This document shows positions 481 to 37,122 of a stretch of 38,196 bases of DNA, in pieces. The DNA is from a virus: positions 1 through 38,196 of IMG/VR virus record IMGVR_UViG_3300015262_000135; one strand, 5' to 3'. A program made the position numbers and the translations under genes. The notes under the pieces are model-generated. The model worked only from the letters and a program-made list of their open reading frames with translations, had not been told where the DNA came from and searched no databases. The stretch's first letter is position 1; each line of letters begins with the position of its first letter.

Positions 481-564
481 TGTAACGTCGCGGCCGAATT
501 GGCACTCTTTCGCGGCGGAATTGTCACCTCGGTCGCGAACGCCATTTGCGGCCGGATTGGCACT
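481..564 (+). other. Phage right-end transposase-binding region (three 17-bp sites)
   Basis: Three directly repeated 17-mers point the same way. R1 is at 490-506 (GCGGCCGAATTGGCACT), R2 at 512-528 (GCGGCGGAATTGTCACC) and R3 at 548-564 (GCGGCCGGATTGGCACT). R1 and R3 differ by one base. Their position just inside the terminus matches the arrangement of MuA-type end-binding sites, so transposase binding is inferred. R3 overlaps the stop codon of the methyltransferase gene. Confidence 0.75.
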
Positions 565-1360
565 AAAAAAGGCCGCCCATCACGCCTGGTTCCCAGTTCG
601 TAATCACCAGCTCGCCGCTCGTATCCGGCCGCCCGTGTCTGTTCGCGACCGAGTAGCGGATGTCCAGTTTGAGCATGTGGAAGCCATCAAACGCCCTCCG
701 GATGTCCGGGTGGTCGTTGATCGAGACCATGACCTTGCCGCGCGCTTTGCGCATTAGCGCCGCCATCTCCTCGTATTCCCCGAAATCGAACGGCATCCCG
801 TAGCCTTCCGTCTGCCAGTACGGCGGGTCGAGGTAAATGAAGGTGTGCGGGCGATCGTACCGCTCCACGCACTCGCGCCATGGAAGATTCTCGACGTGCG
901 TTCCAGACAAGCGCAGGTGAGCCGCTGAGAGCTGCTCTTCAATCCGTAGCAGGTTGACCGATGGCGCGGTCGTGGCGGTGCCGAACGTCTGGCCGGCCAC
1001 CTTTCCACCGAAAGCATGGTGCTGAAGGTAGAAAAAACGGGCGGCGCGCTGGATGTCGGTCAGGGTTTCTGGTCGCGTCATTTGCTGCCACTTGAACACC
1101 TGCCGGCTGCTGATCGCCCATTTGAACTGCCGGACGAACTCCTCCAGATGGTGCTGCACGACGCGGTACAGGTTGACCAACTCGCCGTTGACGTCATTGA
1201 TGACTTCAACGGGCGCTGGCACCGGCCGCAGGAAATACAGCGCAGCGCCACCGCAGAACGCCTCGACATAGCATTCGTGCGGCGGAAATAGCGGGATGAG
1301 TTTATCGGCCAGCCGGCGCTTACCGCCGAGCCAGGGGATGATCGGTGCTGACGATTCCAA
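563..1360 (-). CDS. Dam-like DNA adenine N6-methyltransferase (class D12)
   Basis: This enzyme would transfer a methyl group from S-adenosylmethionine to adenine in DNA. Counting from the TTG start, the N-terminus has IIPWLGGKRRLADKL (7-21), typical of phage Dam proteins. The SAM-binding motif is EAFCGGAALYF (33-43), and the catalytic DPPY is at 178-181 inside FIYLDPPYWQTEGYG. Length is about 265 residues, normal for the family. The open frame runs upstream to 1441, but residues before IIPWLGGK look non-coding. A TTG at 1360 has GAGAAGG six bases upstream, so I chose it; an upstream ATG at 1441 is the alternative. The gene is the last one at the phage right end and its TAG lies in transposase site R3. 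Its role could be evasion of host restriction or changing regulation by methylation. Target sequence (possibly GATC) is inferred from the family. Confidence 0.9.
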   Translation of the reverse strand: MESSAPIIPWLGGKRRLADKLIPLFPPHECYVEAFCGGAALYFLRPVPAPVEVINDVNGELVNLYRVVQHHLEEFVRQFKWAISSRQVFKWQQMTRPETLTDIQRAARFFYLQHHAFGGKVAGQTFGTATTAPSVNLLRIEEQLSAAHLRLSGTHVENLPWRECVERYDRPHTFIYLDPPYWQTEGYGMPFDFGEYEEMAALMRKARGKVMVSINDHPDIRRAFDGFHMLKLDIRYSVANRHGRPDTSGELVITNWEPGVMGGLF

Positions 1361-1561
1361 TTGTTTACCTTCTCGATCCCGGCGTGATAGCCTTACGCCG
1401 CCTCTGCAGGGGTAGCGTGGCCTTGCCGGATTCGCAGGCATCGACTGCGGATGCGGGGCGGGTCAGGTGTTCGCAGCACCAGGCACGTCGCCACGCTCTT
1501 TCTCGACATTAATATCTCCGATGGCCCTACGGAAACGAGCGGCCATCGAGCCGAGCGCAGA

Positions 1562-2752: not shown

Positions 2753-3169
2753 TTAAATCGGGTGCGGCGGCTCGGGCCACTCTATGTCGAACGGAAACCC
2801 TGGCTGGGTCGGTATGTCGCGCAACTTCTGGCGGTACTCCACCCACAGGGCAGCTTGCTCTTGCACCGACCGTGGAGCGTCAGGAGGGACCGCAGTTCGA
2901 GTATCGGAGTCGCGAAGGCACGCATCCCGCTGCTCACGGATGACGACTGCCCGAAACTCAGCCTCGTTGGCGGCAAATTCTTTGTGAATCAATTCATCGT
3001 CTGGCTGCGGTTCAGTTCGCTTCCACGCCGCGATCCATGGCAGGTCGGTAAGCTCGCCGGTTTCCGAATCAACGGGTTGGCCTACGAGAAAATCTACGCC
3101 GTGCAGCGCACCTGGATACAGCTTCTTGATCGTCGCGATCATGTGATTGTGCACGTAGGTGCATGCCAT
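2753..3169 (-). CDS. Tail fibre assembly protein
   Basis: This 138-residue protein ends in a segment (YRQKLRDIPTQPGFPFDIEW then PEPP) typical of phage tail-fibre assembly chaperones. Those proteins help the distal fibre fold or attach and usually lie directly after the fibre gene, as here. It has an excellent ribosome site, AAGGAGG, seven bases upstream of ATG, partly overlapping the fibre stop region. The fibre gene ends nine bases upstream. The N-terminal half is less conserved and fits a fibre-specific partner. Identification rests on the C-terminal motif and position. Confidence 0.8.
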   Translation of the reverse strand: MACTYVHNHMIATIKKLYPGALHGVDFLVGQPVDSETGELTDLPWIAAWKRTEPQPDDELIHKEFAANEAEFRAVVIREQRDACLRDSDTRTAVPPDAPRSVQEQAALWVEYRQKLRDIPTQPGFPFDIEWPEPPHPI

Positions 3170-3178
3170 AAAACCTCC

Positions 3179-4393
3179 TTATTGGTTGCGGAGAACGACA
3201 CCGCGCAGGTAACAGCGCGTGTTATTCGCCTCCTTGCGCATTCCCATCATCACGTACGGAGCCGGGATGTCGATCGTGTGCGCGGCGATGTTGATACCGA
3301 TGTCCATGATTCCCCACTCGGCAACGCCTGAATCCCACTGAACGCGAGCGCCGCCATTCGCCTTTCTCGCAACCACGTTCGACGCGTAGTCGTTTCCCCA
3401 GGCTGCGCCCCATACATTGCCGTCAGTCTGGAAAGACGCTCCTCCCACGTGCGCGGTGCTTTTTTGCCACGTCTCGCCGACGTCCGACACCTGCCACGGA
3501 ACGTCGTTGTAAGCGCTGTTGATGATGTCGAGGCCACCACCGACGCGCGCACGCAGGTACACATTCGAGTTCTGCGAATACAGGTTCTGAAGCTGAATGT
3601 CAGCCTGCCAGCCGTTGCGCGCGATGATGAGTCGATCCGACATGTTGGGCGCACTGCGGGACACGTACGTGTTGGATAGATAGGTGCTCAACCATCCGCC
3701 CCATACCGGTCCATAGACGTTTCCGTCAGTCGCAAACGTGGCGTTGGCACCACCACCCACCGTCGTCCCGCCGACGGTCAAGTTGCTTCGGGTCGCGACC
3801 TGGCCACCGTCGTACACCCACAGGTTCACGGCGGTGTTCGCACCATTCGCGACGCCGACGAACTTCCCGGCCCCGTCCGTTTGGATTCGTGGTGCGTAGT
3901 CGCCCGCCTTCAGAATCACACCGCTGTACCCGCCCGGGATCGCGATCGTCGTCCAGCCAGTAATCGTATCGCCACCAGTCTTGTTGAGCGCGTATCCCTT
4001 CACCCAATCCTGAGATGCATACGCGTCAAGCTGGCTCGCGAATGCGAGCAGGCCGAGGTCGTTCGCGTCGACTGTCACGCGCAGTCCAGAACCATCCTTC
4101 GCCCAACCGATCTTCACCGCATTGGTGCCTTGGCCTACTCCGGTGCCTTGCTGAACTGGTGTGTAGCCGAGCTTGGGCTGATAGTCCTCACCGGCATCGC
4201 CGACGATCTTCTGGATTGCCTTGAGGATTTGCGTGTTGTCGGTCGGATCGAGCTTCATGCCGACACTTTCGGGAACGGCCGCCAGTTCTTCCTGGACGGT
4301 CTGCATGTATGGCATCGTGACAACCGTGCCCTTGATCCCTTGCGAAGGATCGCCCGCGTGCCAGTTGCCGTCCGGTGTGTTGATTCGCTGCAT
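3179..4393 (-). CDS. Tail fibre protein
   Basis: This is a 404-residue putative receptor-binding fibre. The N-terminus (MQRINTPDGNWHAGDPSQGI) and the next 90 residues look like the virion-attachment domain of Mu-type fibres. The middle is rich in Gly, Thr, Asn and Val and has repeated short blocks (FATDGNVYGPVWGGWLSTYL and FQTDGNVWGAAWGNDYASNV), as in trimeric beta-structured fibres. The blocks are related, which suggests a repeated structural unit. The C-terminus (YVMMGMRKEANNTRCYLRGV) is probably the receptor-binding tip. The gene lies between the gp48-type baseplate gene and the assembly chaperone. No inverted alternative fibre ends or invertase were seen, so there is a single fibre type. 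Confidence 0.85.
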   Translation of the reverse strand: MQRINTPDGNWHAGDPSQGIKGTVVTMPYMQTVQEELAAVPESVGMKLDPTDNTQILKAIQKIVGDAGEDYQPKLGYTPVQQGTGVGQGTNAVKIGWAKDGSGLRVTVDANDLGLLAFASQLDAYASQDWVKGYALNKTGGDTITGWTTIAIPGGYSGVILKAGDYAPRIQTDGAGKFVGVANGANTAVNLWVYDGGQVATRSNLTVGGTTVGGGANATFATDGNVYGPVWGGWLSTYLSNTYVSRSAPNMSDRLIIARNGWQADIQLQNLYSQNSNVYLRARVGGGLDIINSAYNDVPWQVSDVGETWQKSTAHVGGASFQTDGNVWGAAWGNDYASNVVARKANGGARVQWDSGVAEWGIMDIGINIAAHTIDIPAPYVMMGMRKEANNTRCYLRGVVLRNQ

Positions 4394-4968: not shown

Positions 4969-6032
4969 ACCATCGGCCTCAACGTCACCTTGCCGAGGCG
5001 GCACCACTCGATCACCTGCGCATCAACCACGGGGACGACGTTAGCCGCCGGACTGTCCAGTACGTAGTCGTCGATGCCGAGCGTATCGTTGATGACACCG
5101 CCGATGCGGTTGCGAATGACCGTATCGCCAGGCGACACGACCGCGTTGTAGGCGTCGAGTCCGGATTCCACCGCAGACTGGGCCGCGTCGAGCGTGATGC
5201 CATTCAGCTTGACGGCAGCCGTCACGTCATACGTCTTGATCGACGGGACGACAACGCGCGTATCCTTCGCCCGCACAGGGCGCTGATCGTCGATATGCGC
5301 CTGTGCCGCCTTCAATACATCGTCGGACGGCAGGCCGTCCTCGGTCACGATCACAACGTCGACCGTGCCGAGTCCACGGCGAAGCGGATAAACGAACGCG
5401 GCCGTCACGCCTGGCACTTCCATCGCCCATTGCCAGTAGTCGTACTTGTTGCCACCGGCCGGCGGGCGACGGATACGCTGCAACAGGCGGGCGAGCAGGC
5501 TGTCGAGCGTTTCGATTGCCGTGCCGCCGCGCAGGGTCACGATGGTCAGTGTCGCGTCGACGTCGATCGGAGGTACCGTGAGCGTGAGCGTATCGCCGTC
5601 CTGGCGGTTCCCGATGGTGCCGGCGTCGACGGCCGCGACGGAGACGACGAGATTGCCCGCCGCATCGAACGTGCCTCCGCTCGTCGTCACGTAGGCCGTA
5701 CCGTCCTGGAACTTCGCGCTCAGACCACTGGCGATCTGGACGCCGGCCTTGCCCTTGGCGCGCGCGGTGCCACTCGCAACGACCGGCGGCTTGCGCTCGA
5801 TCCCGCGCAGACGAGCGTGCAGGATGAGATAGTCTTCGTCGGCCGTGTCCGGGAAAATCTGCCGCGCCGTCCAGGCGATGCGCGCATACAGACCTTCGAC
5901 CGCGCTGGCCGTGCCGCTCGCGCGCACGTAGTGATCGGAATCGTCGCCGACGTCGGCGTCCGGGCGCTGATTCTTTATCTCGCGCAGGATGTTCGCGCGG
6001 ACCTGGTCGAGTGTGAGAACGGTCGCCGGCAT
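4965..6032 (-). CDS. Baseplate J-like protein (Mu gp47 type)
   Basis: This 355-residue protein belongs to the gpJ/Mu gp47 family of baseplate wedge proteins. The N-terminus has the usual order: a helical start (LDQVRANILREI), then SDHYVRASGTASAVEGLYAR and TADEDYLILHARLRGIERKP. Beta-rich repeats (GTIGNRQDGDTLTLTVPPI) and YDYWQWAMEVPGVTAAFVYP in the middle are strongly typical. It overlaps both neighbours by a few bases, with ATGA-type junctions, indicating translational coupling within the baseplate operon. It works with the gp46, gp45 and gp48 types encoded next to it. Confidence 0.92.
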   Translation of the reverse strand: MPATVLTLDQVRANILREIKNQRPDADVGDDSDHYVRASGTASAVEGLYARIAWTARQIFPDTADEDYLILHARLRGIERKPPVVASGTARAKGKAGVQIASGLSAKFQDGTAYVTTSGGTFDAAGNLVVSVAAVDAGTIGNRQDGDTLTLTVPPIDVDATLTIVTLRGGTAIETLDSLLARLLQRIRRPPAGGNKYDYWQWAMEVPGVTAAFVYPLRRGLGTVDVVIVTEDGLPSDDVLKAAQAHIDDQRPVRAKDTRVVVPSIKTYDVTAAVKLNGITLDAAQSAVESGLDAYNAVVSPGDTVIRNRIGGVINDTLGIDDYVLDSPAANVVPVVDAQVIEWCRLGKVTLRPMV

Positions 6033-6451: not shown

Positions 6452-7054
6452 TCAGACGGTCGGCGTGCCCGTGATGCTCCCGGTTTCCGGGTGCTTGTGG
6501 CCGTTGAAGCTCTTGTTGCCGATCACGGCATCCTTATCGACGGTCAGGCTATCGATATGCGCACCGTTGCCGCCCGTCATCGACATGCCTCCCTTGCCGG
6601 TGATCTGCTCGGCGACGTTGAGCGCGTGATCCATGTTGACGGTCGGCGTCTTGAAGTTCACCGAGTCTTCCGCTTCGATGTTCAGCGTCTTCGTCTTGAT
6701 GTCGATGACGCGGCCGCGCGACAGCACAATCGAATCGCCCTCATCGGTATAGATCGCGACCTCACCGGGCTTCAACGCCTTCAGACGATACTCTCCATGT
6801 TCGGTCGCGACGACGATGCCGTGACTCGTCTTGCCGCCGATCGGCACGACAACCATCATCGTGCCGGCCGGTGGCGAGCTGGTGACGCCGTAGTGCTGGA
6901 ACAGTTCGAGATCGACGCCGCTCTCGCCGGCAAGACCTTCGCCACGCACCATGGCGACAGGGCCGGCGGTGTTCACACCGCTGATCACGCCGCGAAACGC
7001 CTGACGCACGCCTGCCAGCATGCGGGACACTCGTTTTTCAACTTCTCGCATCAT
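6452..7054 (-). CDS. Baseplate spike protein, gpV/Mu gp45 type
   Basis: This 200-residue protein would form the membrane-piercing tail spike at the centre of the baseplate. It has the OB-like N-terminal part (GEGLAGESGVDLELFQHYGV, then PPAGTMMVVVPIGG). The C-terminal beta-helical part has repeated VD.../I... strands and ends in GHKHPETGSITGTPTV, with an HxH motif as in metal-binding spike tips. The open frame continues upstream to 7306, but the ATG at 7054 overlaps the TGA of the gp44-type gene and fits the family N-terminus, so it is taken as the start. Confidence 0.9.
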   Translation of the reverse strand: MMREVEKRVSRMLAGVRQAFRGVISGVNTAGPVAMVRGEGLAGESGVDLELFQHYGVTSSPPAGTMMVVVPIGGKTSHGIVVATEHGEYRLKALKPGEVAIYTDEGDSIVLSRGRVIDIKTKTLNIEAEDSVNFKTPTVNMDHALNVAEQITGKGGMSMTGGNGAHIDSLTVDKDAVIGNKSFNGHKHPETGSITGTPTV

Positions 7055-8181
7055 TTTGTCACCGTCGTATTTCCGTTCGCGTCCGTCACGACCAGCGAGA
7101 GCGGGCCGTCGCTTTTTTTCTTGCGCCGATGCTTGCGCCCCGAATGCGGATGCGCGTCGAGAATCCACACGCCATCCTCCTTCAGCGTCAGAGTCGTACG
7201 CGTGCCGCCAGGCCGGCCGCCCGTGAAGCGGCGCGCCATCAGGAAATAGATTGCGTCGATCCCGTATTCTTCCCACACGACATGCACGCGCTGCCCGGGC
7301 TTCCATAGCACGCCGTCCGAGGTCCGGTGTCCCTTCACGCTGGCTTTCAACGTATGTGCAGCGAGCGCCGAATCGGAGATGATCTTCTTCGCGCGTGCCT
7401 CGGCGGCCGCGAGGTTCGGCGCGTCGTGATCGACGTACACCTTCGGACGGTAGACGGCGACGCTGGTGTCTTTTACCGTCACCTTGATCGCATGCTTGCC
7501 GGTCGTCGAACCGGTGCCGTGCGCCTGGCCAAGCACCGTGACTTCTGAAAAGCGTTCAGCGATCGAGTCATCCTCATCGAACCACTCGACGTTGTTGCCC
7601 TTGCCATCCTCGCGCAGGATCAGGCTTGCGACAGGCGGGGCGTTGTAGTCGGGGCCACCAACCACAAGCGTGCCGTCCGGCTCGAACCACGGCCACAGAC
7701 CCTCGCCCTCGGCCGCGTGAACGAGCGCGTCCCAGGCTGTATCGCCCGGATCGACGCTGATCTTGTCCCATGTCGGTTGAGCTTGTGCCGTGTCGATGCG
7801 CACCTTCTTGATGCCGAGCGGCTTCACGATGTTCGCGACGACGTCGGCGAGCGTGACCTGCTTCGCGGTGAAGATGGGAGCCGAGCAGTCGCGCAGGATC
7901 GCGGCATAGTCCCGGCCGCTGATCGCCAGTGTCTTCTCGGTTTTGCTGGTGCGGCGGCGCACCTGGTCGACGTAACCGACCAGTACCGTTTCGTCGCCGA
8001 CCTTGACTTCGACAGCCGCGCCGCGCTTCACGCTGTCCGGCATCTTGCCGGCTGGGCGCGTGAGGCGCACGTCCCATGCGTCGGCCGGCGTCAGCAGATC
8101 GGAATCGATCGAGTACGACGACCAGGCGCTGTGCGCCTTACCGCCAATCAACAGCGTCACGTCGTTATTGGGCGAAGCCAC
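7051..8181 (-). CDS. Tail hub protein, Mu gp44/gpD type
   Basis: This is a 376-residue protein of the late control D/Mu gp44 (gp27-like) hub family, which forms the central ring above the spike. It has VTLLIGGKAHSAWSSYSIDS at the start, then AISGRDYAAILRDCSAPIF and VVANIVKPLGIKKVRI, all characteristic. DALVHAAEGEGLWPWFEPDG follows in the middle. The C-terminus is basic (HSGRKHRRKKKSDG). It overlaps the upstream gp43-type gene by 17 bases and the downstream spike gene by 4 bases. Confidence 0.92.
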   Translation of the reverse strand: MASPNNDVTLLIGGKAHSAWSSYSIDSDLLTPADAWDVRLTRPAGKMPDSVKRGAAVEVKVGDETVLVGYVDQVRRRTSKTEKTLAISGRDYAAILRDCSAPIFTAKQVTLADVVANIVKPLGIKKVRIDTAQAQPTWDKISVDPGDTAWDALVHAAEGEGLWPWFEPDGTLVVGGPDYNAPPVASLILREDGKGNNVEWFDEDDSIAERFSEVTVLGQAHGTGSTTGKHAIKVTVKDTSVAVYRPKVYVDHDAPNLAAAEARAKKIISDSALAAHTLKASVKGHRTSDGVLWKPGQRVHVVWEEYGIDAIYFLMARRFTGGRPGGTRTTLTLKEDGVWILDAHPHSGRKHRRKKKSDGPLSLVVTDANGNTTVTK

Positions 8182-9475
8182 GGACAGTATCCCCTCGCTG
8201 AATGAAGTTCGGATTGCGGATTTTCGGATTCAGGCGCAGCAGCTCGGCCGAGCGCGAATAGTCCGCGTACCAGAGATGCGCGAGCAAAGTCAGATTCGAC
8301 GGCGCATCGACCGTACGGGAGATGATCGGCGGCAGGACGTCGATCACCTTGATCGCCAGCTCCTGCACCGTCAGCGCCGTCTCCTTTAACGGCTCGATAA
8401 CGGGGCGGGCCTGTTCGACCTGCACGGCAGCCCGCACCGCGTCGATCGCTGTCTGGATCAGCTCTCGCGTGTCGTTCGCGATCTGCTCGACCTGGTCCGG
8501 CGTCAGCGTCGGCGTGTCGGCCTCGTTCGCGAGGATGTCGGACGCGACGCCGGCCGTGACCGTTGCGACCACGACCGCCGTGACGGCCGTGACGAGCTGA
8601 ACGTCCGATGCATCGGCTGCGACCGTACCGGGGCGCGGCGGTGCATACGGCGCGGCCGGATCAGTCGAGCCGCTCGGTGCGACGGTTGTCGCCTGCGTAC
8701 CAGGAATAACAAGCGGCTGGCCAGCGGCAGATGCGGCGGGCAGCTTCACGACCGTTTTCATCTGGTCGCGCATGTCGTTCCAATCGGACATAACGAGGCC
8801 CGGATCGAACGACCGGAAGTCGGCAATGCCGCTGACCAGGCCGATCAGGTCGGACGCAAACGCGCCGGGCCACGACAGATAGTCGACGCTCGCACGGCGG
8901 AAGCCGACGACCAGTGCCTTGATCGGGCCGAGCGTCTCGCTCAACACGTCGCGCAGGGCATTGAGGCGACGCAGGCCGGCCTTCATCGTCTTGAGCAAGC
9001 CAACGGCACGCTCGAACATGCTGACGCCGGCGTCCTGAGCGGTGGTCGCGAGCTGCGCTGCGGCGTCTGCGGTCTGGGTTGGTTGCTGTTCGACGAAGAA
9101 CGGATTCGCAGGCGTCGAGCGCTTGAATCGCATCTCGATCACGCAGGCGTCGACGTTGTCGGCATCGTGCGACACGTGTGCGCCAATGAGCTGCATGCTC
9201 GGCATCGAGCCGAACACCGGATGAATGAGTTCGCCTGGCCCCTTGACCGCGAGCGCGGCGAGCAGCGCCTTCATCCGCACGTCATAGTCGTCGCCGAAGA
9301 AGATCGCCGTGAGGCTCGTCGTGTGCGCCTTCAAACCGAGGTCTTCGACGTCCTCGCCGTCGACGTGCGGGACCGCATATTCCGCCGTGTCGCGGTCGAT
9401 CGTATCGTCGGTGCGTTGCGCGTCGAACGGCACACCGCGAAACGATGCATCGAACAGTGTGTCTTTCCAGGCCAT
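8165..9475 (-). CDS. DNA circularisation protein, Mu gp43 (N) type
   Basis: This 436-residue protein matches the Mu N / DNA circularisation family: N-terminal WKDTLFDASFRGVPFDAQRT, then HVDGEDVEDLGLKAHTTSLT and FFGDDYDVRMKALLAAL. In Mu the N protein is needed for tail function and for protecting or circularising injected DNA. The C-terminal part has a short LysM-like peptide (AHLWYADYSRSAELLRLNPK), which suggests a peptidoglycan or virion-binding tail end. The gene starts two bases after the tape-measure stop. Confidence 0.88.
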   Translation of the reverse strand: MAWKDTLFDASFRGVPFDAQRTDDTIDRDTAEYAVPHVDGEDVEDLGLKAHTTSLTAIFFGDDYDVRMKALLAALAVKGPGELIHPVFGSMPSMQLIGAHVSHDADNVDACVIEMRFKRSTPANPFFVEQQPTQTADAAAQLATTAQDAGVSMFERAVGLLKTMKAGLRRLNALRDVLSETLGPIKALVVGFRRASVDYLSWPGAFASDLIGLVSGIADFRSFDPGLVMSDWNDMRDQMKTVVKLPAASAAGQPLVIPGTQATTVAPSGSTDPAAPYAPPRPGTVAADASDVQLVTAVTAVVVATVTAGVASDILANEADTPTLTPDQVEQIANDTRELIQTAIDAVRAAVQVEQARPVIEPLKETALTVQELAIKVIDVLPPIISRTVDAPSNLTLLAHLWYADYSRSAELLRLNPKIRNPNFIQRGDTVRGFAQ

Positions 9476-9476
9476 A

Positions 9477-11741
9477 TCAGTTCCTCAATGCGTTCTTCTG
9501 GCTGGCCGTCGACACGAAGTCGTACAGGTGTTGGCCATCGAGATTGATCGTAAAGTGGCCTTCGACGACGGGCGGCTTCTCGTCTTTCTTCTGCGCGAAG
9601 ATCGCGTCGCCGATCATCTTGCCGATGCGCTCGCCGAAGTCGTGACCGAAGTAGCCGGCGATCGCACCGCCGATCGCGCCCACGGCAGTGCCGGCGATCG
9701 GCACCACCGAACCGGCCGCAGCACCTGCGGCCGCGCCCAATGCCATGCCGCCCAGACCACCGACGACGCCGCCCGCGACACCGACGTAACCAGCCTTCTT
9801 CTGGTCCGGTGTCATCGAGTCGTTGTTCGCGATGGAGTACGCCTCGATGCCGCCCATGACCGCTTGTAACGGGGCACCGAAGCGGCCCACCAATCGCGCG
9901 CCGGCCGCGAAGCGCGAACCGAAGGTCGCGGCCTGGGCGGCGGTGGTGCCGAGCGCTCCGGCCGATGCGGCGGCGGCATCAGCGGCCGCAACTCCGGCAA
10001 CCGGCGCCGCACCGAACCCGCCGCGCAGGATGCTGATGGACGCCGCGACACCGAGCGCGGCCGACAGCGTCTTCAGGCCGAGCGTCGTGCCTTCGATCGC
10101 GGCGGTCAACTCGGGATACTTGCGCGCGTAGTCGGTGAGGTTCGTCGCCACGTTGCCGAGCTTCTCGTCGAAGCCTTCCAGCGCCTTCTGGCGCGCAATC
10201 TGGCGCTCGTTTTCGAGCTGGTCGGCCTTGAACGACGCGGTGCCGGCAATCGTCTCGAAGTTGCTGTCGACCGCCATCTTCGGATCGAACACCTGGGACT
10301 CGACCTGCTTCCGGTAGTCTTTCTGGCCCATGTAAGCGACCGCCGCGCCGAGCGCCTGGCGATCATGGATGATCTTGCCGATTGATGTGCCTTCGAGCAA
10401 CTGGACCTGGCTCTCCATGATCTCTTTGCGCTGGCTCTCAGGCGCAGTCGCGAGCTTGGTCTTCAGGCTCTGATAGCGCTTGTCGCGCGACATTACGTTT
10501 TCGAGGATGCCAACGAACGCGTCCAGTGCGTTCACACCTTTCGCACGCGACGCAGCGAGACTGCCGGTCAGATCGATACCAAGCTTTTTCGCCTTGATCT
10601 GCGTGTCCTGGGAATTCAGCTTCTCGAGCAGGTTGACCAGGTTGTTACCGGCTTCATCCTTCGTGCCGGCCGTGATCACCGATGCCTGGTTGGCGACGAC
10701 AAGCTTGCCGAAGTCCTGCAAACCCGACATACCGGCGAGCTTCGCCATGGCCATCTGTTGCGGGAGCCACTTCGACATATCCTTCAGCTCGAAGCCGCCG
10801 GCCTGGCCACCTTTGAGCGCCATGTCGAGTGCGCGCGGGATGTCCGCTTCCTTGATCTTGAAGTTCTGCATCGCACGGATGGCGATGTTGCCGAGTTCGT
10901 TCGGGTCCGCGCCGGTGGCCGTCGCGAACTTTTGCAGGGTCGGCAGCATTTTCATCGCGGTTTTGTCACTGACCGCGCCGGACGCGAGCAGGTTGTCGAG
11001 CGTGTCGGCCGCCTGTTCGCGCGAACCGCCCCCCGAACGTACGGCCGTCACGATCGCATCGTTCAGCTCGCCGACGCCCCGGCGTCGACCGGCGACGTCG
11101 CGATCGGAGAACGCGGTGTTCGCCATCATGGCGAGCCGGCGGTCATAGGCCATCGTCTCGCGCACGGCAGGGGCGGCCACCATCACGCCGGCAGCAGCGC
11201 CGGCCACGACGCTGCCGGCACGCCACATCGCGCCGACCGCACGACCACCGCGCGCGAGCCGGCCTTCCGCCTGCTCGGTGCCGCGCAGCTCGCGGTTCAG
11301 CTCGGCCACACGCGTACGCAACGCAGCGAACGCGCGCGCCTGCTCGGCGGCCGACGCGAAGCCCGCGCGCTGGAGACGGTTGTAGGCGGCGACGGTCTGG
11401 GAAATTTCCCGGCGAATGGTCTGTTCGGAACGGACGTCGAGTTGCGAGCGGGCGGCCGCCAGGCGTTGCGAGCCGGTCAGGATGTTCCGGTTTGCCTGGG
11501 TGTAGGCCGCCTCGGTCTGGTGCACGTTGCGCTGGACCGCTTGCTCGGCACGGGCCGATTGCGACATGCGCACGTCGTACAGCATGCGACTGGTCGTCAC
11601 GCTCACGCGCGACGCGTCGGCATACGTCTGGGCGGTCTGACGCACCGAGCGCTGTACGTTGCGCTCGCTTTGTTGTGCGGGCGTCGACACCTGGTCGCGC
11701 ATCCGCACGGTCAATCCGACTTCGAGATCCCGGGACGACAT
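9477..11741 (-). CDS. Tail tape measure protein (Mu gp42 type)
   Basis: This 754-residue protein sets tail length. The first ~170 residues are Gln/Arg/Ala-rich with repeated R-S-V-x-Q-T-like units (coiled coil). A hydrophobic stretch (GSVVAGAAAGVMVAAPAV) and a TP901-type core (DRDVAGRRRGVGELNDAIVT to about residue 400) follow. Near the C-terminus a glycine-zipper region (GVVGGLGGMALGAAAGAAAG) fits membrane insertion during DNA delivery. ATG overlaps by one base the stop codon of the frameshift-extended chaperone (TAATG), the usual context for a tape measure gene. Confidence 0.92.
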   Translation of the reverse strand: MSSRDLEVGLTVRMRDQVSTPAQQSERNVQRSVRQTAQTYADASRVSVTTSRMLYDVRMSQSARAEQAVQRNVHQTEAAYTQANRNILTGSQRLAAARSQLDVRSEQTIRREISQTVAAYNRLQRAGFASAAEQARAFAALRTRVAELNRELRGTEQAEGRLARGGRAVGAMWRAGSVVAGAAAGVMVAAPAVRETMAYDRRLAMMANTAFSDRDVAGRRRGVGELNDAIVTAVRSGGGSREQAADTLDNLLASGAVSDKTAMKMLPTLQKFATATGADPNELGNIAIRAMQNFKIKEADIPRALDMALKGGQAGGFELKDMSKWLPQQMAMAKLAGMSGLQDFGKLVVANQASVITAGTKDEAGNNLVNLLEKLNSQDTQIKAKKLGIDLTGSLAASRAKGVNALDAFVGILENVMSRDKRYQSLKTKLATAPESQRKEIMESQVQLLEGTSIGKIIHDRQALGAAVAYMGQKDYRKQVESQVFDPKMAVDSNFETIAGTASFKADQLENERQIARQKALEGFDEKLGNVATNLTDYARKYPELTAAIEGTTLGLKTLSAALGVAASISILRGGFGAAPVAGVAAADAAAASAGALGTTAAQAATFGSRFAAGARLVGRFGAPLQAVMGGIEAYSIANNDSMTPDQKKAGYVGVAGGVVGGLGGMALGAAAGAAAGSVVPIAGTAVGAIGGAIAGYFGHDFGERIGKMIGDAIFAQKKDEKPPVVEGHFTINLDGQHLYDFVSTASQKNALRN

Positions 11742-12276
11742 TATTTTTTCTTACCCTTCGGACGCTTACGCCTCAAACTCTTCACGGTGCGCGTCGTGGT
11801 GCCGGGCACCTCCTGGCGAGGTTTCTTGCCGCGAATCGTTGCGATTGCGGCAAGATATCCCTCAAGCTCCGGACCGGTCAGGCTTCGGAACCGTTCTTCG
11901 CTGACGCCATACTCGGCGAGGACGAGTCCGGCGAGCCGGTAGTTTCGGCGGCCGGATTCGGCCGCTTCCGCTTTTTTTTAAGATCGTCCTGCGCCTTCAT
12001 CATCACGTCGTAGTCGCTGTCGACCGCGGTCGCGAGCAGCTCGTCGGTGATCGCTTCTTGCGGGATCGTGCCGAGCGAGACGAGACAGCGGGCGAGCATT
12101 GCGACGTTGACCCGCATGTTCGACACGCCACCACCGATGATTTCCGGCTGCTCATAGACCTCGATGTTTTCGCCGATCGTGCCGAGGCGAATCTCGAAGT
12201 CGTAGTGCAGCTCACCGCTGCCCGGTGGAAATTCGACGCCGTATTCCAGCGAACCCTTTTCGGTCATCATGCTCAT
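11741..12276 (-). CDS. Tail assembly chaperone, long frameshift product (gpGT-like)
   Basis: The zero-frame chaperone gene has an 8-A run (11979-11972) followed by G, near its end. A -1 slip on A AAA AAG, at bases 11977-11971, joins the first 102 residues to a second frame of 76 residues (AEAAESGRRNYRLAGLVLAE and on to RRKRPKGKKK). The total is 178 residues, and it stops at TAA 11743-11741, overlapping the tape-measure ATG. The extension is free of stops for 228 bases and fills exactly the space between the short gene and the tape measure. This is the arrangement of lambda G/GT-type tail chaperones. The extended product would bind the tape measure and recruit tube subunits. Frameshift efficiency cannot be seen here. 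Confidence 0.85.
11878..12276 (-). CDS. Tail assembly chaperone, short product (gpG-like, Mu gp41 type)
   Basis: This is the 132-residue unshifted product. The first ~100 residues (SLEYGVEFPPGSGELHYDFE through AITDELLATAVDSDYDVMMK) are the shared domain. The tail after the slippery site is low complexity (TTGSPDSSSPSMASAKNG). Tail chaperones of this type are made in excess over the extended form and are absent from mature virions. ATG overlaps the TGA of the tube gene (ATGA), indicating coupled translation. Confidence 0.88.
   Translation of the reverse strand: MSMMTEKGSLEYGVEFPPGSGELHYDFEIRLGTIGENIEVYEQPEIIGGGVSNMRVNVAMLARCLVSLGTIPQEAITDELLATAVDSDYDVMMKAQDDLKKKRKRPNPAAETTGSPDSSSPSMASAKNGSEA
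11971..11979 (-). promoter_or_regulatory. Programmed -1 ribosomal frameshift site (A AAA AAG)
   Basis: On the minus strand the codons CTT AAA AAA AAG contain eight consecutive A before G. Slipping back one base lets both tRNA-Lys re-pair with AAA, a classic slippery heptamer. GC-rich sequence follows (CGGAAGCGGCCGAATCCGGC), which could form a stimulatory hairpin (GCGGCCGAATCCGGCCGC has complementary GCGGCC and GGCCGC ends). Confidence 0.82.
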
Positions 12277-12650
12277 TCATTCACCCGTCGAGTCGAGAAG
12301 ATGGTGAGGTCGCGGCGCGCCTCGTTTTCTACGCTGTACTGTTCGCTCACGTCGAGCGTGACGCAGTCGTAATAGCTCACGCGCTGACCACCGGGCGACA
12401 CGGGGAACTGGGTGAGCTTTCCGCCTTCCATGTTCCACCAGTCGATCTCATCGCCACCGAGCGGAATCACGACGGTCGCCTTCAGCTCGTGTTCTTCGAC
12501 GCCGCGCGCGAAGCCCTTGACGCGACCGGTGCGGTTCATCGTCTTGACCGGCTTCTTGCCGGTCTTCGACGTCACCGAGAAGGTCACGACCTCGGCCTCC
12601 AGGCCGTCGACTTCGAGCACGATCGCGCCGACGTATTCTTCCAATGCCAT
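12273..12650 (-). CDS. Tail tube protein (Mu gp40, M type)
   Basis: This 125-residue protein matches the Mu M-type tail tube subunit. It is placed between sheath and chaperone, as in Mu, and has the family's length. Visible features include VGAIVLEVDGLEAEVVTFSV at the start, SKTGKKPVKTMNRTGRVKGF in the centre (a Mu-tube feature) and IDWWNMEGGKLTQFPV. ATG has a good ribosome site, AGGAG, eight bases upstream. The tube would stack as rings inside the sheath with length fixed by the tape measure. Confidence 0.9.
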   Translation of the reverse strand: MALEEYVGAIVLEVDGLEAEVVTFSVTSKTGKKPVKTMNRTGRVKGFARGVEEHELKATVVIPLGGDEIDWWNMEGGKLTQFPVSPGGQRVSYYDCVTLDVSEQYSVENEARRDLTIFSTRRVNE

Positions 12651-12679: not shown

Positions 12680-14101
12680 TTACAGGATCAGATCGATCCG
12701 GCCGGCGAAGACGTGCAGCCCGTTGACGACGTCGCACGGGATCGCGGCATTGAGCTGGTTGACGTCCTGCAGATCGCGTTCGACGATCAGCTTGTCCTTG
12801 TTCGCCTCGACGTTTTCGATGATTTCCAGCTCTTCCAGCTTGTACAGCACGTCGAGCAGCTCGCTACGCACCTTCGGCGGCGTCTTCTCCGACAGCTTCT
12901 CGCGCGGGAAGCGAAGCGCAATCCGTTGCTGACACGCCTTGCGAACGTAGTCCAGCGTGCGGATCGTCGTCACGTCGAGCAGCGCCGGATCGTCGATGCC
13001 CTGCGCATCCTTCGTGTACGTCGTGATTGCACGGACGATCTGCACAACGTTGCCGGGGCCGATCTCGAAGGGCGTCACGCCGTTATGCAGTGCTTTCTCC
13101 TGTTCGGTGCGTCCCGGTTGCAACGGGATCGGCGTCACATCGAGGCCGAGCAGCGCGAGCGTATTCAGCGGGCGTGCCGGGTCGGTCTCGCTGGAAAGGA
13201 CGGCTGCATATTCGGCTGCGATCTCGGCCGGCATGCATACCGAACCCGGATGCCAACCGATCGTGATCCGCCCCCCGTTGAGATCGCCGGCGAGCGTAGT
13301 AGCGGTAGACAGAGTCGCGGGCGTGCCAGCGACGCCGACAGCGGGACGTTGTTCGAGCGCGCCCGAGATGCTGTCCAGGTGCGTGCGCAACTTCATCACC
13401 GACTCCAACGTCGGCCAGCAAGTCGCATACAGGTTGTACTTCGCGCCGTATACGGCCGCGAGCGCCGGGGCGATGTCGGGATCGTTCAACCCACCCGAGA
13501 GTGCGGTAATCGTTGCTTTGACGCCGGCCGCCTGGTTGAGCTGCGACAGGACGATGTCGTTGCCGAACGCCCCCTTGTTCTTCGCCGTCAGCGTGACCTT
13601 GCCGTTGACCGAGTCGGCCGTGACGGGCAATGCGGTCTTCTGCGCGATCTGATCCTTGAGGCGCGTGGCGATCGTCGTTTCGGTGTCGTCCGCGTACACA
13701 GCGATATCGACCCGCGTATTGGCAATGAACAGGGCGAACGCACCGTCGGCAGTCGCCGGTCCCGTGAATTCGATTGTCCCCTTGGCCGGCTGCCCCGCAA
13801 CAGCGTCGTCGACCGCGATGACCGTCAGGCTCACGTACTTGTACGCCGTGATCGCAGCGACGGCCGCGATGTGCGCGAGCGACCCTGCGCCAAAGTACAG
13901 CGCCGCTTGGTCGCCGGAAAACACGTCGACTGGCTTCAGTGCCGGCACAGTGCCGTCAGCGGTACGCTGGCCGATGATAAGCACGGTCTGGTCGTTCGCC
14001 GGCAGCGTGCGCACAGCGAGCTTCGTGTTGAATTCGAAATACTTGCCCGGCTTGCGGATACCCGACGGGATCGTGTCGAACGAAATGTTTTTGCTTGCCA
14101 T
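12680..14101 (-). CDS. Tail sheath protein (Mu gp39, L type)
   Basis: This is the 473-residue contractile sheath subunit. It starts ISFDTIPSGIRKPGKYFEFN, the Mu L-type start, and has LPANDQTVLIIGQRTADGTV next. The middle contains ALFIANTRVDIAVYADDTET and GKVTLTAKNKGAFGNDIVLS. The C-terminal half holds the well-conserved core TTIRTLDYVRKACQQRIALR and ends with VNGLHVFAGRIDLIL. An AAGGAG ribosome site lies about nine bases upstream of ATG. Sheath contraction drives the tube and spike through the host envelope. Confidence 0.95.
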   Translation of the reverse strand: MASKNISFDTIPSGIRKPGKYFEFNTKLAVRTLPANDQTVLIIGQRTADGTVPALKPVDVFSGDQAALYFGAGSLAHIAAVAAITAYKYVSLTVIAVDDAVAGQPAKGTIEFTGPATADGAFALFIANTRVDIAVYADDTETTIATRLKDQIAQKTALPVTADSVNGKVTLTAKNKGAFGNDIVLSQLNQAAGVKATITALSGGLNDPDIAPALAAVYGAKYNLYATCWPTLESVMKLRTHLDSISGALEQRPAVGVAGTPATLSTATTLAGDLNGGRITIGWHPGSVCMPAEIAAEYAAVLSSETDPARPLNTLALLGLDVTPIPLQPGRTEQEKALHNGVTPFEIGPGNVVQIVRAITTYTKDAQGIDDPALLDVTTIRTLDYVRKACQQRIALRFPREKLSEKTPPKVRSELLDVLYKLEELEIIENVEANKDKLIVERDLQDVNQLNAAIPCDVVNGLHVFAGRIDLIL

Positions 14102-33161: not shown

Positions 33162-35342
33162 TTACTGATGGCTGGCGAGCTGCAACTCTTCAGCCTGTTC
33201 CGCGCGACGCTTTTGCGCCGCGAATTCTTTGCTCAACGCATATCTGCCGTACCACTGCAATTCGTCCTGATCGGGGATGCCTCCTGTTTCGATCTGTTCG
33301 TTGAGGGTCTGCCACCGGGCAAATCGCAGTTCAGGTGTTTCCGGAAGCTGGAACACGGTGGCGGTTTCGATGACGGCTTCCGGTTGCGATTGCGGTTCAA
33401 GCACGATGGAGGCGACCGCTTCGACGTCGACCACCGGCTCGGCATCCACGAATCGGCGATTCAGGGCATCGCGCGTGATGTCGCCGAACCCCGGGATCGT
33501 GATGACCTCCGGCGTTTCGAGCGTCAACGCGCGTTGGCCTCGACGTTCCGCCTCGACCTCGTCGAGCTTGGCTTGCAGCCGATTCGCTCGCGCATCAGCG
33601 CGTTTCTCGCGGGCCTGCTCGACAGCGGACTGCGGCATGTAATCCCGTTCATTCGCGCCGGCCTCGGCCTGGCAGATGTAGCGACCGTCGAGCGCGTAAA
33701 TCCAGACGAACCGCGCATCGTTGATGTCGTAAGCGACTTGCACTTCTTCGTCGTGGAATTCGAGCAGCGCCTGCGGATTCGAATACCGATGATTCAAGAA
33801 CCGAACCTCGCCACGCGAGACGGTCCGCTTGATTCGCGGCCGGAACACCATGCGCGCATCGTGTTCGTCGAGCGTGTCGGCTTGCCAGCCTTGCGCGACA
33901 TGCGCCTCCCATGCTTCATTGGGCGACATGTGCCGACGCTTGCCGGTGTTCGGATCGCGGATGACGGCCAGCGTGCTATGGGGACGGTCGTTGTATGCGT
34001 CGACCTGTTCCTGGCAAAACTGGATGAATGTTTCCCATCCCATCAGAGACATCGCGCCGCCATGCTTGAGTGCGTCGCGCGTGATCTTGAACATCACGTG
34101 TTTGGCCTGGCGGTCCATGTCCGCGCCCATGTACGACGGCAGCTTCTTCGCGGCGGCGACCCACAGCGTCTGGTGAAGGCGCTCGACGACGCCGCGCGCC
34201 TGCGAGTTGTACGGAATCGAGTGCGTGACGACGAAGCCCAGGCGACCTTGGACGCCGACGCCTTCGTCTTTCAGCAGCGCGTTCTTGTAGCCGGACCCGT
34301 TGTCGACGTAGAACATGCTCGGCACGCCACACTTGAGTACTGCGGTACTCAGCGCGTCGAGCACTGCGAACGACGATTCGGCAAGGTCGAGCGAGATGCC
34401 GACCGCGCGCCGCGTGGCGACGTCGATAATCGAGGTGATCTCCGGTCGGAACGGTCGACCGTGCAGCGGGTGCTGTACCTCCGCGTCGAACGTATGACCG
34501 TCGGCCGACCAGATGTCGTTCGGCAGCAGCTTGTCGAACGTGCGGCGGATAAACGGCAGCATCGTCTTCAGTTCGCGCGATCCCATACGCCCGGTCTGTA
34601 ACGTCACGCTGCCGAGCTTGTCGAGGAATCGGCGAACCTGATGGACGCTCGGCACGTCGTATGCGACGCGCTGCACTGCGCATGCCGTCGTGAAGTCACG
34701 ATAGGCTTGCTCAACCGACGGTTTCTGCGGCTGCTGATAGTGTTCGAGGAACAGCTTCGCCCACTCGGGAATCACGAAGCTCGATTTCGGAATCTTCGGT
34801 GCGAGTGAACCCTGTTTCGCGAGACCGAGATAGCGCTTCAGTGTGCGAATGCTCGGGAATTCGTCGCCCTTGCGGCCGCGTGAATCCTTGGCAGCGCGCA
34901 GCATGGCCGTCATGTGATCGTCGAGCGTGCCGAGGCGGGCCTGCGTCAGCAGCGTGTGCATCGCTGCCTCGCGCGAGACACGGCATTGCGTCATGATGCG
35001 GTCGAGCATCGACAAGATGCCTTTGCGCGCATCGGCACGCAGGCGTTGCGTGTCCGTTTCGACGAGTTGCAGTTGCTGCTCACGGCGGATGACAGCCTTG
35101 GCCGGCTGCTTGGGGACGGACGTGACGAGCGCCGCCGACGCGCGGTGACGAATCGCCACTTGTGCTTCAGCAGGCAGGCTGTCCAACGCGTATTCCAGGC
35201 CCTTACCCTTTGTGCGGCGACGTGCCGCCCACTTTTCCCGCGTTGCGCTATAGCGAACGCCCTGTTCGGTGGTCGGCACACCCGGCAGCCCGAGCATCGC
35301 GAGTTCGGGGGCGGTGTAGTGCGATTTGACGACGATCTGCAT
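33162..35342 (-). CDS. DDE transposase (Mu A type)
   Basis: This 726-residue transposase performs integration and replicative transposition by strand transfer at the phage ends. N-terminal: MuA-like winged domain (HYTAPELAMLGLPGVPTTEQ, ARRRTKGKGLEYALDSLPAE). The catalytic triad appears as D281 (IWSADGHTF), D347 (MFYVDNGSG) and E387 (ARGVVERLH). After it is a C-terminal beta/all-alpha part (TVSRGEVRFLNHRYSNPQAL) and a helical, charged C-terminus that could contact the ATPase. The frame runs 48 codons further upstream, but ATG at 35342 overlaps the upstream gene's stop (TGATG) and gives the MuA-like start. Confidence 0.95.
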   Translation of the reverse strand: MQIVVKSHYTAPELAMLGLPGVPTTEQGVRYSATREKWAARRRTKGKGLEYALDSLPAEAQVAIRHRASAALVTSVPKQPAKAVIRREQQLQLVETDTQRLRADARKGILSMLDRIMTQCRVSREAAMHTLLTQARLGTLDDHMTAMLRAAKDSRGRKGDEFPSIRTLKRYLGLAKQGSLAPKIPKSSFVIPEWAKLFLEHYQQPQKPSVEQAYRDFTTACAVQRVAYDVPSVHQVRRFLDKLGSVTLQTGRMGSRELKTMLPFIRRTFDKLLPNDIWSADGHTFDAEVQHPLHGRPFRPEITSIIDVATRRAVGISLDLAESSFAVLDALSTAVLKCGVPSMFYVDNGSGYKNALLKDEGVGVQGRLGFVVTHSIPYNSQARGVVERLHQTLWVAAAKKLPSYMGADMDRQAKHVMFKITRDALKHGGAMSLMGWETFIQFCQEQVDAYNDRPHSTLAVIRDPNTGKRRHMSPNEAWEAHVAQGWQADTLDEHDARMVFRPRIKRTVSRGEVRFLNHRYSNPQALLEFHDEEVQVAYDINDARFVWIYALDGRYICQAEAGANERDYMPQSAVEQAREKRADARANRLQAKLDEVEAERRGQRALTLETPEVITIPGFGDITRDALNRRFVDAEPVVDVEAVASIVLEPQSQPEAVIETATVFQLPETPELRFARWQTLNEQIETGGIPDQDELQWYGRYALSKEFAAQKRRAEQAEELQLASHQ

Positions 35343-35824
35343 CACTCGGCCTCCGCTGCATCGAACCGCAGTTCGGGGGCGCGATCCTTCGTGACGTTCT
35401 CGCGGTGGTAACCGGCTTGCGTCATCGCATGAGTGAGCGCAGTGACCGCTTCCGCCTGTTCGTGGCCGGATTCGTAATAGCGGCACAGCACAGCCGCCGC
35501 GTCGGCGAACGCAGATTGCAGCGACGCCAGGTCGGTGACGCGGGGGCGACGGCCGGTCGGGATTTCGATGACGACACGACGGCCGTCCGCGATGCAGAGG
35601 TATTCGCTGACGAAGCGCGCGCCGCAGAATTCTTCGAATTGACGCACGCGGTTCAGCGGCATCGATGTATCGGAGAGCCAGCGATACAGCGTTTTCACTT
35701 CGACGCCCATCAGATCGGCCAGTACCTTCGCGGGCCGGCGGCGCTCGGCGGCATGTTCAACGCACAGCTCGAAAGCCTCGCTCAGGCTCGTCGCGTGCAG
35801 GGAGTTCCAGGTCCGTTTTCTCAT
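35342..35824 (-). CDS. HTH protein encoded upstream of transposase
   Basis: This 160-residue protein has an HTH in its N-terminal half (HAAERRRPAKVLADLMGVEV then KTLYRWLSDTSMPLNRVRQF, with CGARFVSEYL). That resembles a Cro-like DNA-binding fold. The C-terminal half has helical residues (LQSAFADAAAVLCRYYESGH). Its stop overlaps the transposase ATG. The likely start is the ATG at 35824, one codon after a GTG. It probably acts in early regulation or helps transposition; the family is not firmly recognised. Confidence 0.75.
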   Translation of the reverse strand: MRKRTWNSLHATSLSEAFELCVEHAAERRRPAKVLADLMGVEVKTLYRWLSDTSMPLNRVRQFEEFCGARFVSEYLCIADGRRVVIEIPTGRRPRVTDLASLQSAFADAAAVLCRYYESGHEQAEAVTALTHAMTQAGYHRENVTKDRAPELRFDAAEAE

Positions 35825-36203: not shown

Positions 36204-36405
36204 GTGCTCGTCCTTTTCGCTGAACATGTGCGCACATCGTACCGCAGATATTCGCGGCCAAGCAAGAGAAAGTTCGGATGCTGTGCAGATTTTCGTTTCT
36301 GTTTCGTTTCACAACCCGCATTTGTGCGTGGTCTAACCCCGAAAAAAGTAGCCCCATCAATCACTTACAGCGATAACGAAAGTGCCGAACCGAGAAGATG
36401 TGCGC
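36194..36405. promoter_or_regulatory. Candidate repressor/Ner operators: repeated ATGTGCGC motifs
   Basis: The octamer ATGTGCGC occurs three times within 212 bases. At 36194-36203 it is ATGTGCGCAT at the start of ner, at 36226-36237 it is a perfect palindrome ATGTGCGCACAT, and at 36398-36405 it lies in the start of the repressor gene. A looser copy (TTTGTGCGTGG) is near 36322. Repeated palindromic half-sites in the divergent region between two regulators are typical of operators. Confidence 0.6.
36236..36265 (-). promoter_or_regulatory. Candidate early promoter (ner-transposase operon)
   Basis: On the minus strand, -10 TACGAT (36236-36241) has a possible -35 TTGCTT (36260-36265) 18 bases before. 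The -10 is directly followed by, and slightly overlaps, the perfect palindrome ATGTGCGCACAT, so a bound repressor would block it. The ner ATG is 33 bases downstream. Confidence 0.5.
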
Positions 36406-37122
36406 GTTTCGATTCCGGCGGACGGAATCGAAAGCCGAATTGATGAGATGTGCCGCCATATCGGCGGGCGCGGCGCGGCGGCCGCCGTCGCCGGGGTATC
36501 AGACGACATGCTTCGTCGATACATCCGTGGCGACAGCAAACCTACGTTTGAGGTAGTCGCAAAGCTCGCCCGCGCAGCGGGAGTCAGCTTGGACTGGGTT
36601 GCGACCGGAGACGGCGACGGGATTCGGGGCGGCGATCGGACGCAAGGCGACGCGGTACAGCCTCAGCCGTGCGTTGACACGCTGGGGAACCCGGTCGATC
36701 TGGAGGAATTCGTGTTCATTCCTCGCTACAACGTGAAGGTTGCTGCCGGGCACGGCCAGGCGATCACGGATGAGGCGCCCAAACACACGATGGCCTTCCG
36801 TCGATACTGGATCGAGAACTACCTACATGCAGCGCCGGCCGACCTTTCAGTTTTGTCCGTGAAAGGCGACTCTCTCCAGGGCGTGCTTAACGATCGGGAT
36901 GTAATTCTGATCGATCGAAGCCAAACCACGGGCGCGGCGGGCCTCTACGTGCTGCGGATCGACGGAGATGTCATTGTCAAAACGTTGCAGCGGCTTCCAG
37001 ACGGGATACTGGAGGTGAGCAGCGCTAATCCGGCCTACAAGCCGTTCACGGTCAACATGGCAAAGCCACCGTCAGATTTCGCCATCATCGGGCGCGTGGT
37101 GTGGTTTGGCCGGCAGGTATAG
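36382..37122 (+). CDS. LexA/CI-type phage repressor (S24 peptidase fold)
   Basis: This 246-residue protein has an N-terminal HTH (about 24-60, GRGAAAAVAGVSDDMLRRYI then KPTFEVVAKLARAAGVSLDW) and a C-terminal LexA-like domain. The Ser is at 164 (VKGDSLQGVL) and the Lys at 200 (DGDVIVKTLQR). An Ala-Gly pair (122/123, VKVAAGHGQ) lies 41 residues before the Ser, where LexA-type proteins cut themselves. It is the only plus-strand phage gene and keeps lysogeny. The start is a GTG with poor ribosome site; a second GTG six codons later is possible. Self-cleavage and SOS induction are inferred. Confidence 0.92.
   Translation: MPNREDVRVSIPADGIESRIDEMCRHIGGRGAAAAVAGVSDDMLRRYIRGDSKPTFEVVAKLARAAGVSLDWVATGDGDGIRGGDRTQGDAVQPQPCVDTLGNPVDLEEFVFIPRYNVKVAAGHGQAITDEAPKHTMAFRRYWIENYLHAAPADLSVLSVKGDSLQGVLNDRDVILIDRSQTTGAAGLYVLRIDGDVIVKTLQRLPDGILEVSSANPAYKPFTVNMAKPPSDFAIIGRVVWFGRQV

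Follow-up and report, generated by a model that had tools for sequence, protein, structure and literature searches.

The question raised by this locus is whether the tail assembly chaperone gene of the virus ends with its 132-residue open reading frame, or is continued by a programmed ribosomal frameshift into a second, overlapping frame. A preliminary description of the window, the whole stretch of 38,196 nucleotides analysed here, had proposed that a run of eight A followed by G joins a 102-residue start to a 76-residue stop-free extension, which ends as TAATG with the start of the tape measure gene. A programmed -1 frameshift of the lambda G/GT type in the tail assembly chaperone gene of a Mu-like phage, to which a probability of about 0.92 is assigned, was found to be the best reading of the locus, the relatives having kept both the heptamer and the second frame.

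The tail module and its chaperone gene

The gene lies between the tail tube and the tape measure genes, in the order sheath, tube, G/T, tape measure, N and P. The genes that place it in this context are given below.

12680..14101, minus strand: tail sheath protein (PHROG 165, Phage_sheath)
12273..12650, minus strand: tail tube protein (PHROG 185), directly upstream of G with an ATGA overlap
11878..12276, minus strand: tail assembly chaperone G, zero-frame open reading frame of 132 amino acids, start ATG at 12276, stop TGA at 11880..11878
11741..11971, minus strand: T extension of 76 codons in the -1 frame, with GCG at 11971 as its first codon and TAA at 11743..11741 as its stop
9477..11741, minus strand: tape measure protein (PHROG 794, E 4e-209; PhageMin_Tail)
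9475..8165, minus strand: N-like protein, downstream of the tape measure gene
8181..7051, minus strand: P-like protein, downstream of the N-like gene
563-1441, minus strand: DNA methyltransferase
33162-35486, minus strand: Mu-type transposase
36382-37122, plus strand: CI-like repressor

With the portal, terminase and major head proteins encoded elsewhere in the window, the source is a temperate, Mu-like transposable myophage. A profile search of genome contigs (narrower alignment A2, 8 loci) placed close relatives of the gene in genomes of Burkholderia, Cupriavidus and Chromobacteriaceae, and the 9-kb tail module had no megablast match among known phages. The same gene order from sheath to P is seen in three annotated phages, namely Klebsiella phage ST405-OXA48phi1.1 (L005), Mannheimia phage 3927AP2 (L006) and SuMu (L007).

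The G protein matches the tail assembly chaperone family PHROG 508 (E 7e-34), which is also matched by all 48 of the aligned homologues; Pfam Phage_TAC_7 or Gp41_Mu is reached by 10-12 of the 48, and the window protein itself matches neither of the two. The 102-residue core of G was modelled by AlphaFold2 from the 48-row alignment with a mean pLDDT of 93.7, and the best viral model for this fold is FS-gp41 of Mu (E 9.6e-4, TM 0.70). The leading fold matches in the PDB are YqbN (3KLU, Z 6.3) and the HK97 tail assembly chaperone (2OB9, Z 5.8), both with middling Z scores, and the Foldseek E-value against the PDB is weak and not significant (1.5); a sequence profile search of the PDB returned no real match, its hits being confined to designed helical repeats and chance similarities. 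Thus, G has a predicted tail-assembly-chaperone fold.

The T domains can be aligned across the family, with the conserved pattern R-A--L-L---G--------MT--EL-GYL-A ... S-R-K. T alone was modelled as three helices with a pLDDT of 71, too weak for a fold search. PHROGs 11893, 2768 and 3114, to which no function is assigned, match the T extensions of the chaperone family and are probably T domains severed from G by gene callers. As suggested earlier, gene callers miss the extension: they stop at the 132-residue G frame and lose the T domain. In the records of the Klebsiella phage (5004-5512), Mannheimia 3927AP2 (3167-3753) and SuMu (3372-3952), G and the T piece are listed as separate hypothetical proteins and the frameshift is unannotated.

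The slip site and its surroundings

Direct reading of the sequence located on the minus strand every element that the preliminary description had named without giving a strand, that is, the A8-G run, the 102-residue zero-frame part, the 76-residue stop-free extension and the TAATG end. The elements around the slip site are as follows.

11985..11997, minus strand: Shine-Dalgarno-like AAGGCGCAGGACG region, upstream of the slip site
11978..11980, minus strand: TAA of the -1 frame, abutting the slip codons on the 5' side
11971..11979, minus strand: A8-G run, A8 at 11979..11972 and G at 11971
11977..11971, minus strand: slippery heptamer A AAA AAG, placed in the register that a -1 shift requires and kept in relatives
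11948..11965, minus strand: stem of 7 bp with a 4-nt loop, GCGGCCG (11965..11959) pairing with CGGCCGC (11954..11948), 5 nt after the heptamer

In the zero frame the slip context reads CTT AAA AAA AAG CGG, and the first 102 codons, the last being AAG (11973..11971), are common to G and GT. Because the -1 frame has this TAA just ahead of the slip codons, the two frames can be joined only by a shift inside the A-run. The T extension begins with GCG GAA GCG GCC GAA TCC (AEAAES) and ends with KGKKK (full sequence AEAAESGRRNYRLAGLVLAEYGVSEERFRSLTGPELEGYLAAIATIRGKKPRQEVPGTTTRTVKSLRRKRPKGKKK), its TAA (11743..11741) overlapping the tape measure ATG (11741..11739) as TAATG. From that upstream TAA to about residue 57, the -1 frame of the window is without ATG, GTG or TTG; the conserved core of T therefore cannot begin independently with any of these common starts. 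The distance from the slip site to the zero-frame stop is 97 nt, against a mean of 26 nt in the training set of PRFect (PMC10885494). This overlap is longer than usual and counts against the frameshift reading.

How much of this arrangement could be due to chance was estimated from 14 large genes of the window. Of random in-register positions in these genes, 40% are followed by 76 or more codons without a stop in the -1 frame, and the open frame as evidence by itself was rejected, being this frequent by chance in a GC-rich genome (62.6% GC). In-register XXXYYYZ heptamers (Y being A or T) number 3 in the 6256 positions of these genes, none of the three being A AAA AAG, and lysine is encoded by AAG in 179 of 213 cases and by AAA in 34. 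Thus, the slippery site at G is beyond chance expectation and the open frame is not. Upstream of the site, codon usage fits the zero frame best; within the overlap the -1 frame has a slight advantage, which becomes clear past the stop of G.

The site is most simply explained by two tRNA-Lys slipping in tandem by -1. Most ribosomes would read G, 132 amino acids long; in a minority, the tRNA-Lys in the P-site and the A-site would re-pair one base back on A AAA AAG, and the slipped ribosomes would continue for 76 codons in the -1 frame to give a GT protein of about 178 residues (102 + 76). If lambda is a guide, G may coat the tape measure protein and T may recruit subunits of the tail tube, and assembly would be sensitive to the G:GT ratio. 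That ribosomes slip here, how often they do so and which contacts the proteins make are what we infer; frameshifting of 6-7% has been reported for GT in a reporter for HK97-like chaperones (PMC3711429).

Two candidate stimulators flank the site. The GCGGCC/GGCCGC stem, suspected earlier of stimulating the shift, does form in the window, where its region folds well (71-nt folding z -1.2 against shuffles), but it is not a conserved stimulator, forming in 4 of 20 close relatives, namely the window and its three closest relatives (L002, L011 and L012). Its covariation does not exceed that of shuffles, the pair counts being equal, and RNAalifold found no consensus structure downstream of the site among the relatives. 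The mean folding-energy z after the site is slightly low in the -1 loci (-0.65) and 0.12 in the +1 loci described below. The stem is thus at most a lineage-specific stimulator. In the comparison across lineages, affinity for the anti-Shine-Dalgarno sequence peaks modestly immediately before the heptamer, and several lineages lack the peak; a stimulatory role for this element is suggestive only. Low-efficiency frameshifting without stimulators has been described in certain tailed phages (PMC5009743).

Conservation in relatives and alternative explanations

A profile search of all loci gave 65 family members, the window and some near-duplicates included, so that the loci are not independent. The heptamer A AAA AAG is present in register in 41 of the 65, preserved at constant length within A-runs of eight (34 loci), seven (3 loci) or six (4 loci), and G GGA AAG in 6 of the 65, two of which are doubtful distant members. 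The distant members L073, L074 and L079 have neither of the two heptamers. The lambda-like G GGA AAG occurs in a side branch (L026, near position 5279, L028 and L034). In nearly all loci with either heptamer the -1 frame extends to near the tape measure start. The run had been expected to be kept in relatives and the second frame to be intact, and both expectations were borne out.

Selection on the T frame was evident from the distribution of variable columns, counted in groups of close relatives that are not fully independent, for which reason the p-values are indicative. In the stretch from the slip site to the stop of G, variable columns number 14, 8 and 36 at T-frame positions 1, 2 and 3, with an excess at position 3 (p 9e-6); beyond that stop they number 44, 48 and 95 (p 1e-6). 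In the overlap, position 3 of T is position 2 of G, so selection there keeps T and not the tail of G. The open -1 frame is weak evidence by itself, and it is the conservation in relatives that settles the frameshift reading.

Observed or computed here are the site, its register and conservation, the selection on the T frame, the conserved G and T domains, the gene position and the predicted fold. The strongest rival, itself improbable, is transcriptional slippage, in which RNA polymerase slips on the A8 run and some of the mRNAs encode the fusion in one frame. The run meets the rule of more than seven A quoted for bacteria (PMC3711429), and A8 is kept in 34 of the 41 A-type relatives though the heptamer needs only A6. 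However, the in-register heptamer also occurs with A6 or A7 (7 loci) or as G GGA AAG, which are shorter than the runs on which polymerase slips, and the +1 branch lacks a run altogether; these variants argue for the ribosome over RNA polymerase, although A8 by itself is long enough that the polymerase may slip on it to some extent. A homopolymer error of sequencing or assembly, with a true run of A9 and a single in-frame G-T fusion, is far less probable still. Homopolymers are error-prone, and one assembly does contain an indel-rich copy (L025) of another locus (L023), but independent genomes of several genera show, in the same register, exactly A8 (34 loci) or one of the variants A6, A7 and GGGAAAG, and the zero frame stays open for 97 nt beyond the site in most loci. 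L025, considered as a natural in-frame fusion, was rejected as such, being a copy from the same genome as L023 (IMGVR 2851255004), near-identical to it apart from several single-base indels that fuse or break frames and look like assembly error.

The remaining two explanations can be given hardly any weight. In one of them, T would be a small gene translated from a start codon of its own and not fused to G. This would agree with the records of the Klebsiella, Mannheimia and SuMu phages, which list the T pieces as separate hypothetical frames; against this, the first common start codon of the extension in the window lies past the conserved core, and the conserved slippery site would be left without a role. 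The A8 run and the GC-rich stem could also be read as an intrinsic terminator for plus-strand transcription, as the plus strand (window 11947-11979) reads GGCGGCCGGATTCGGCCGCT, then TCCGC, then T8. Yet five bases separate the stem from the T-run, the A-run is conserved and the stem is not, and the selection on the T frame would be left unexplained, so the terminator-like signal is probably the mere complement of the slip site and the stem.

The branch with T in the +1 frame

Fourteen loci (L048-L052, L054-L060, L062 and L070; L053 is a duplicate of L052) have no in-register A AAA AAG and carry a T homologous to that of the window in the +1 frame. At the homologous place, their zero frame reads NNN TTT CGA in ten loci (L048-L052, L054, L055, L059, L062 and L070; the TTT of L048 is at position 3295), TTT CAA in L056, L057 and L060, and TTT TGC in L058. 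After the G stop, substitutions fall at the three +1-frame positions as 32, 20 and 69, favouring the wobble position (p 1e-7). These loci form one clade on the G-core tree (support 92/88), which is built from few columns, and, provided that the midpoint rooting is correct, the clade is nested among the -1 members.

Re-pairing of a P-site tRNA from UUU to UUC has been proposed for influenza PA-X. In the +1 branch the P-site UUU would likely re-pair to UUC while CGA waits, CGA being the rarest arginine codon in the tape measure genes of the branch (15 of 245). A -2 shift reaches the same frame, but without obvious re-pairing at the site. It appears reasonably likely that the recoding signal was replaced once within a family sharing G and T, from -1 on A AAA AAG to +1 at UUU CGA (UUU CAA or UUU UGC) in one clade of 14 loci, the direction of the shift being interchangeable and the G/GT pair being kept. 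The use of -1, -2 or +1 shifts by different phages is known (PMC5009743); among the papers searched on UUU CGA and phage frameshifting, no report of such a switch within one family was found.

Comparison with known systems

In annotation terms, the T domain is restored to the gene beyond its 132-residue G frame, and the T domains of the family are seen to have gone unrecognised in PHROGs without function and as unrelated small frames in the SuMu, Mannheimia and Klebsiella phage records. Long distances from slip site to stop, such as the 97 nt found here, are of the kind that PRFect reports missing (PMC10885494).

The slippery heptamer of lambda is G GGA AAG. In this family it is confined to a side branch, whereas the window uses A AAA AAG, and the overlap here is 97 nt. 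The likeness to lambda G/GT lies in the overlapping frames between the tube or major tail protein and the tape measure gene, the -1 slip towards the 3' end of G, the conserved T and an equal predicted role (Xu, Hendrix and Duda 2004, 2013, 2014; summary in PMC5009743). The tail module equals that of Mu, whose FS-gp41 is the top viral match of the G model and whose Gp41_Mu family is reached by some relatives; however, a -2 shift has been reported for Mu (PMC5009743), which lands in the +1 frame, and T of the window lies in the -1 frame, with its slip site at A AAA AAG. In Burkholderia phage KS10 (L008, 2888-3491) and Curvibacter phage TJ1 (L009, 2977-3641), the second open frame of the chaperone is in the +1/-2 register without an in-register XXXYYYZ, and these are possibly Mu-type -2 shifts.

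The HK97 chaperone (2OB9) and YqbN (3KLU) cover most of the G domain as its best PDB fold matches, but with an identity of only 9-11%. A tail chaperone of a Burkholderia gladioli prophage, Bg_9562, is known as a filament-forming antifungal protein (PMC9603447). E. coli dnaX shares the heptamer A AAA AAG (PMC3711429) and differs in its product, its function and its conserved flanking stimulators, the window having no conserved stem and a Shine-Dalgarno-like element that is only suggestive. Programmed frameshifting of the chaperone is a well-known phage trick, and the +1 branch within the family is unexpected, offering a natural experiment on the exchange of a recoding signal with retention of the protein pair.
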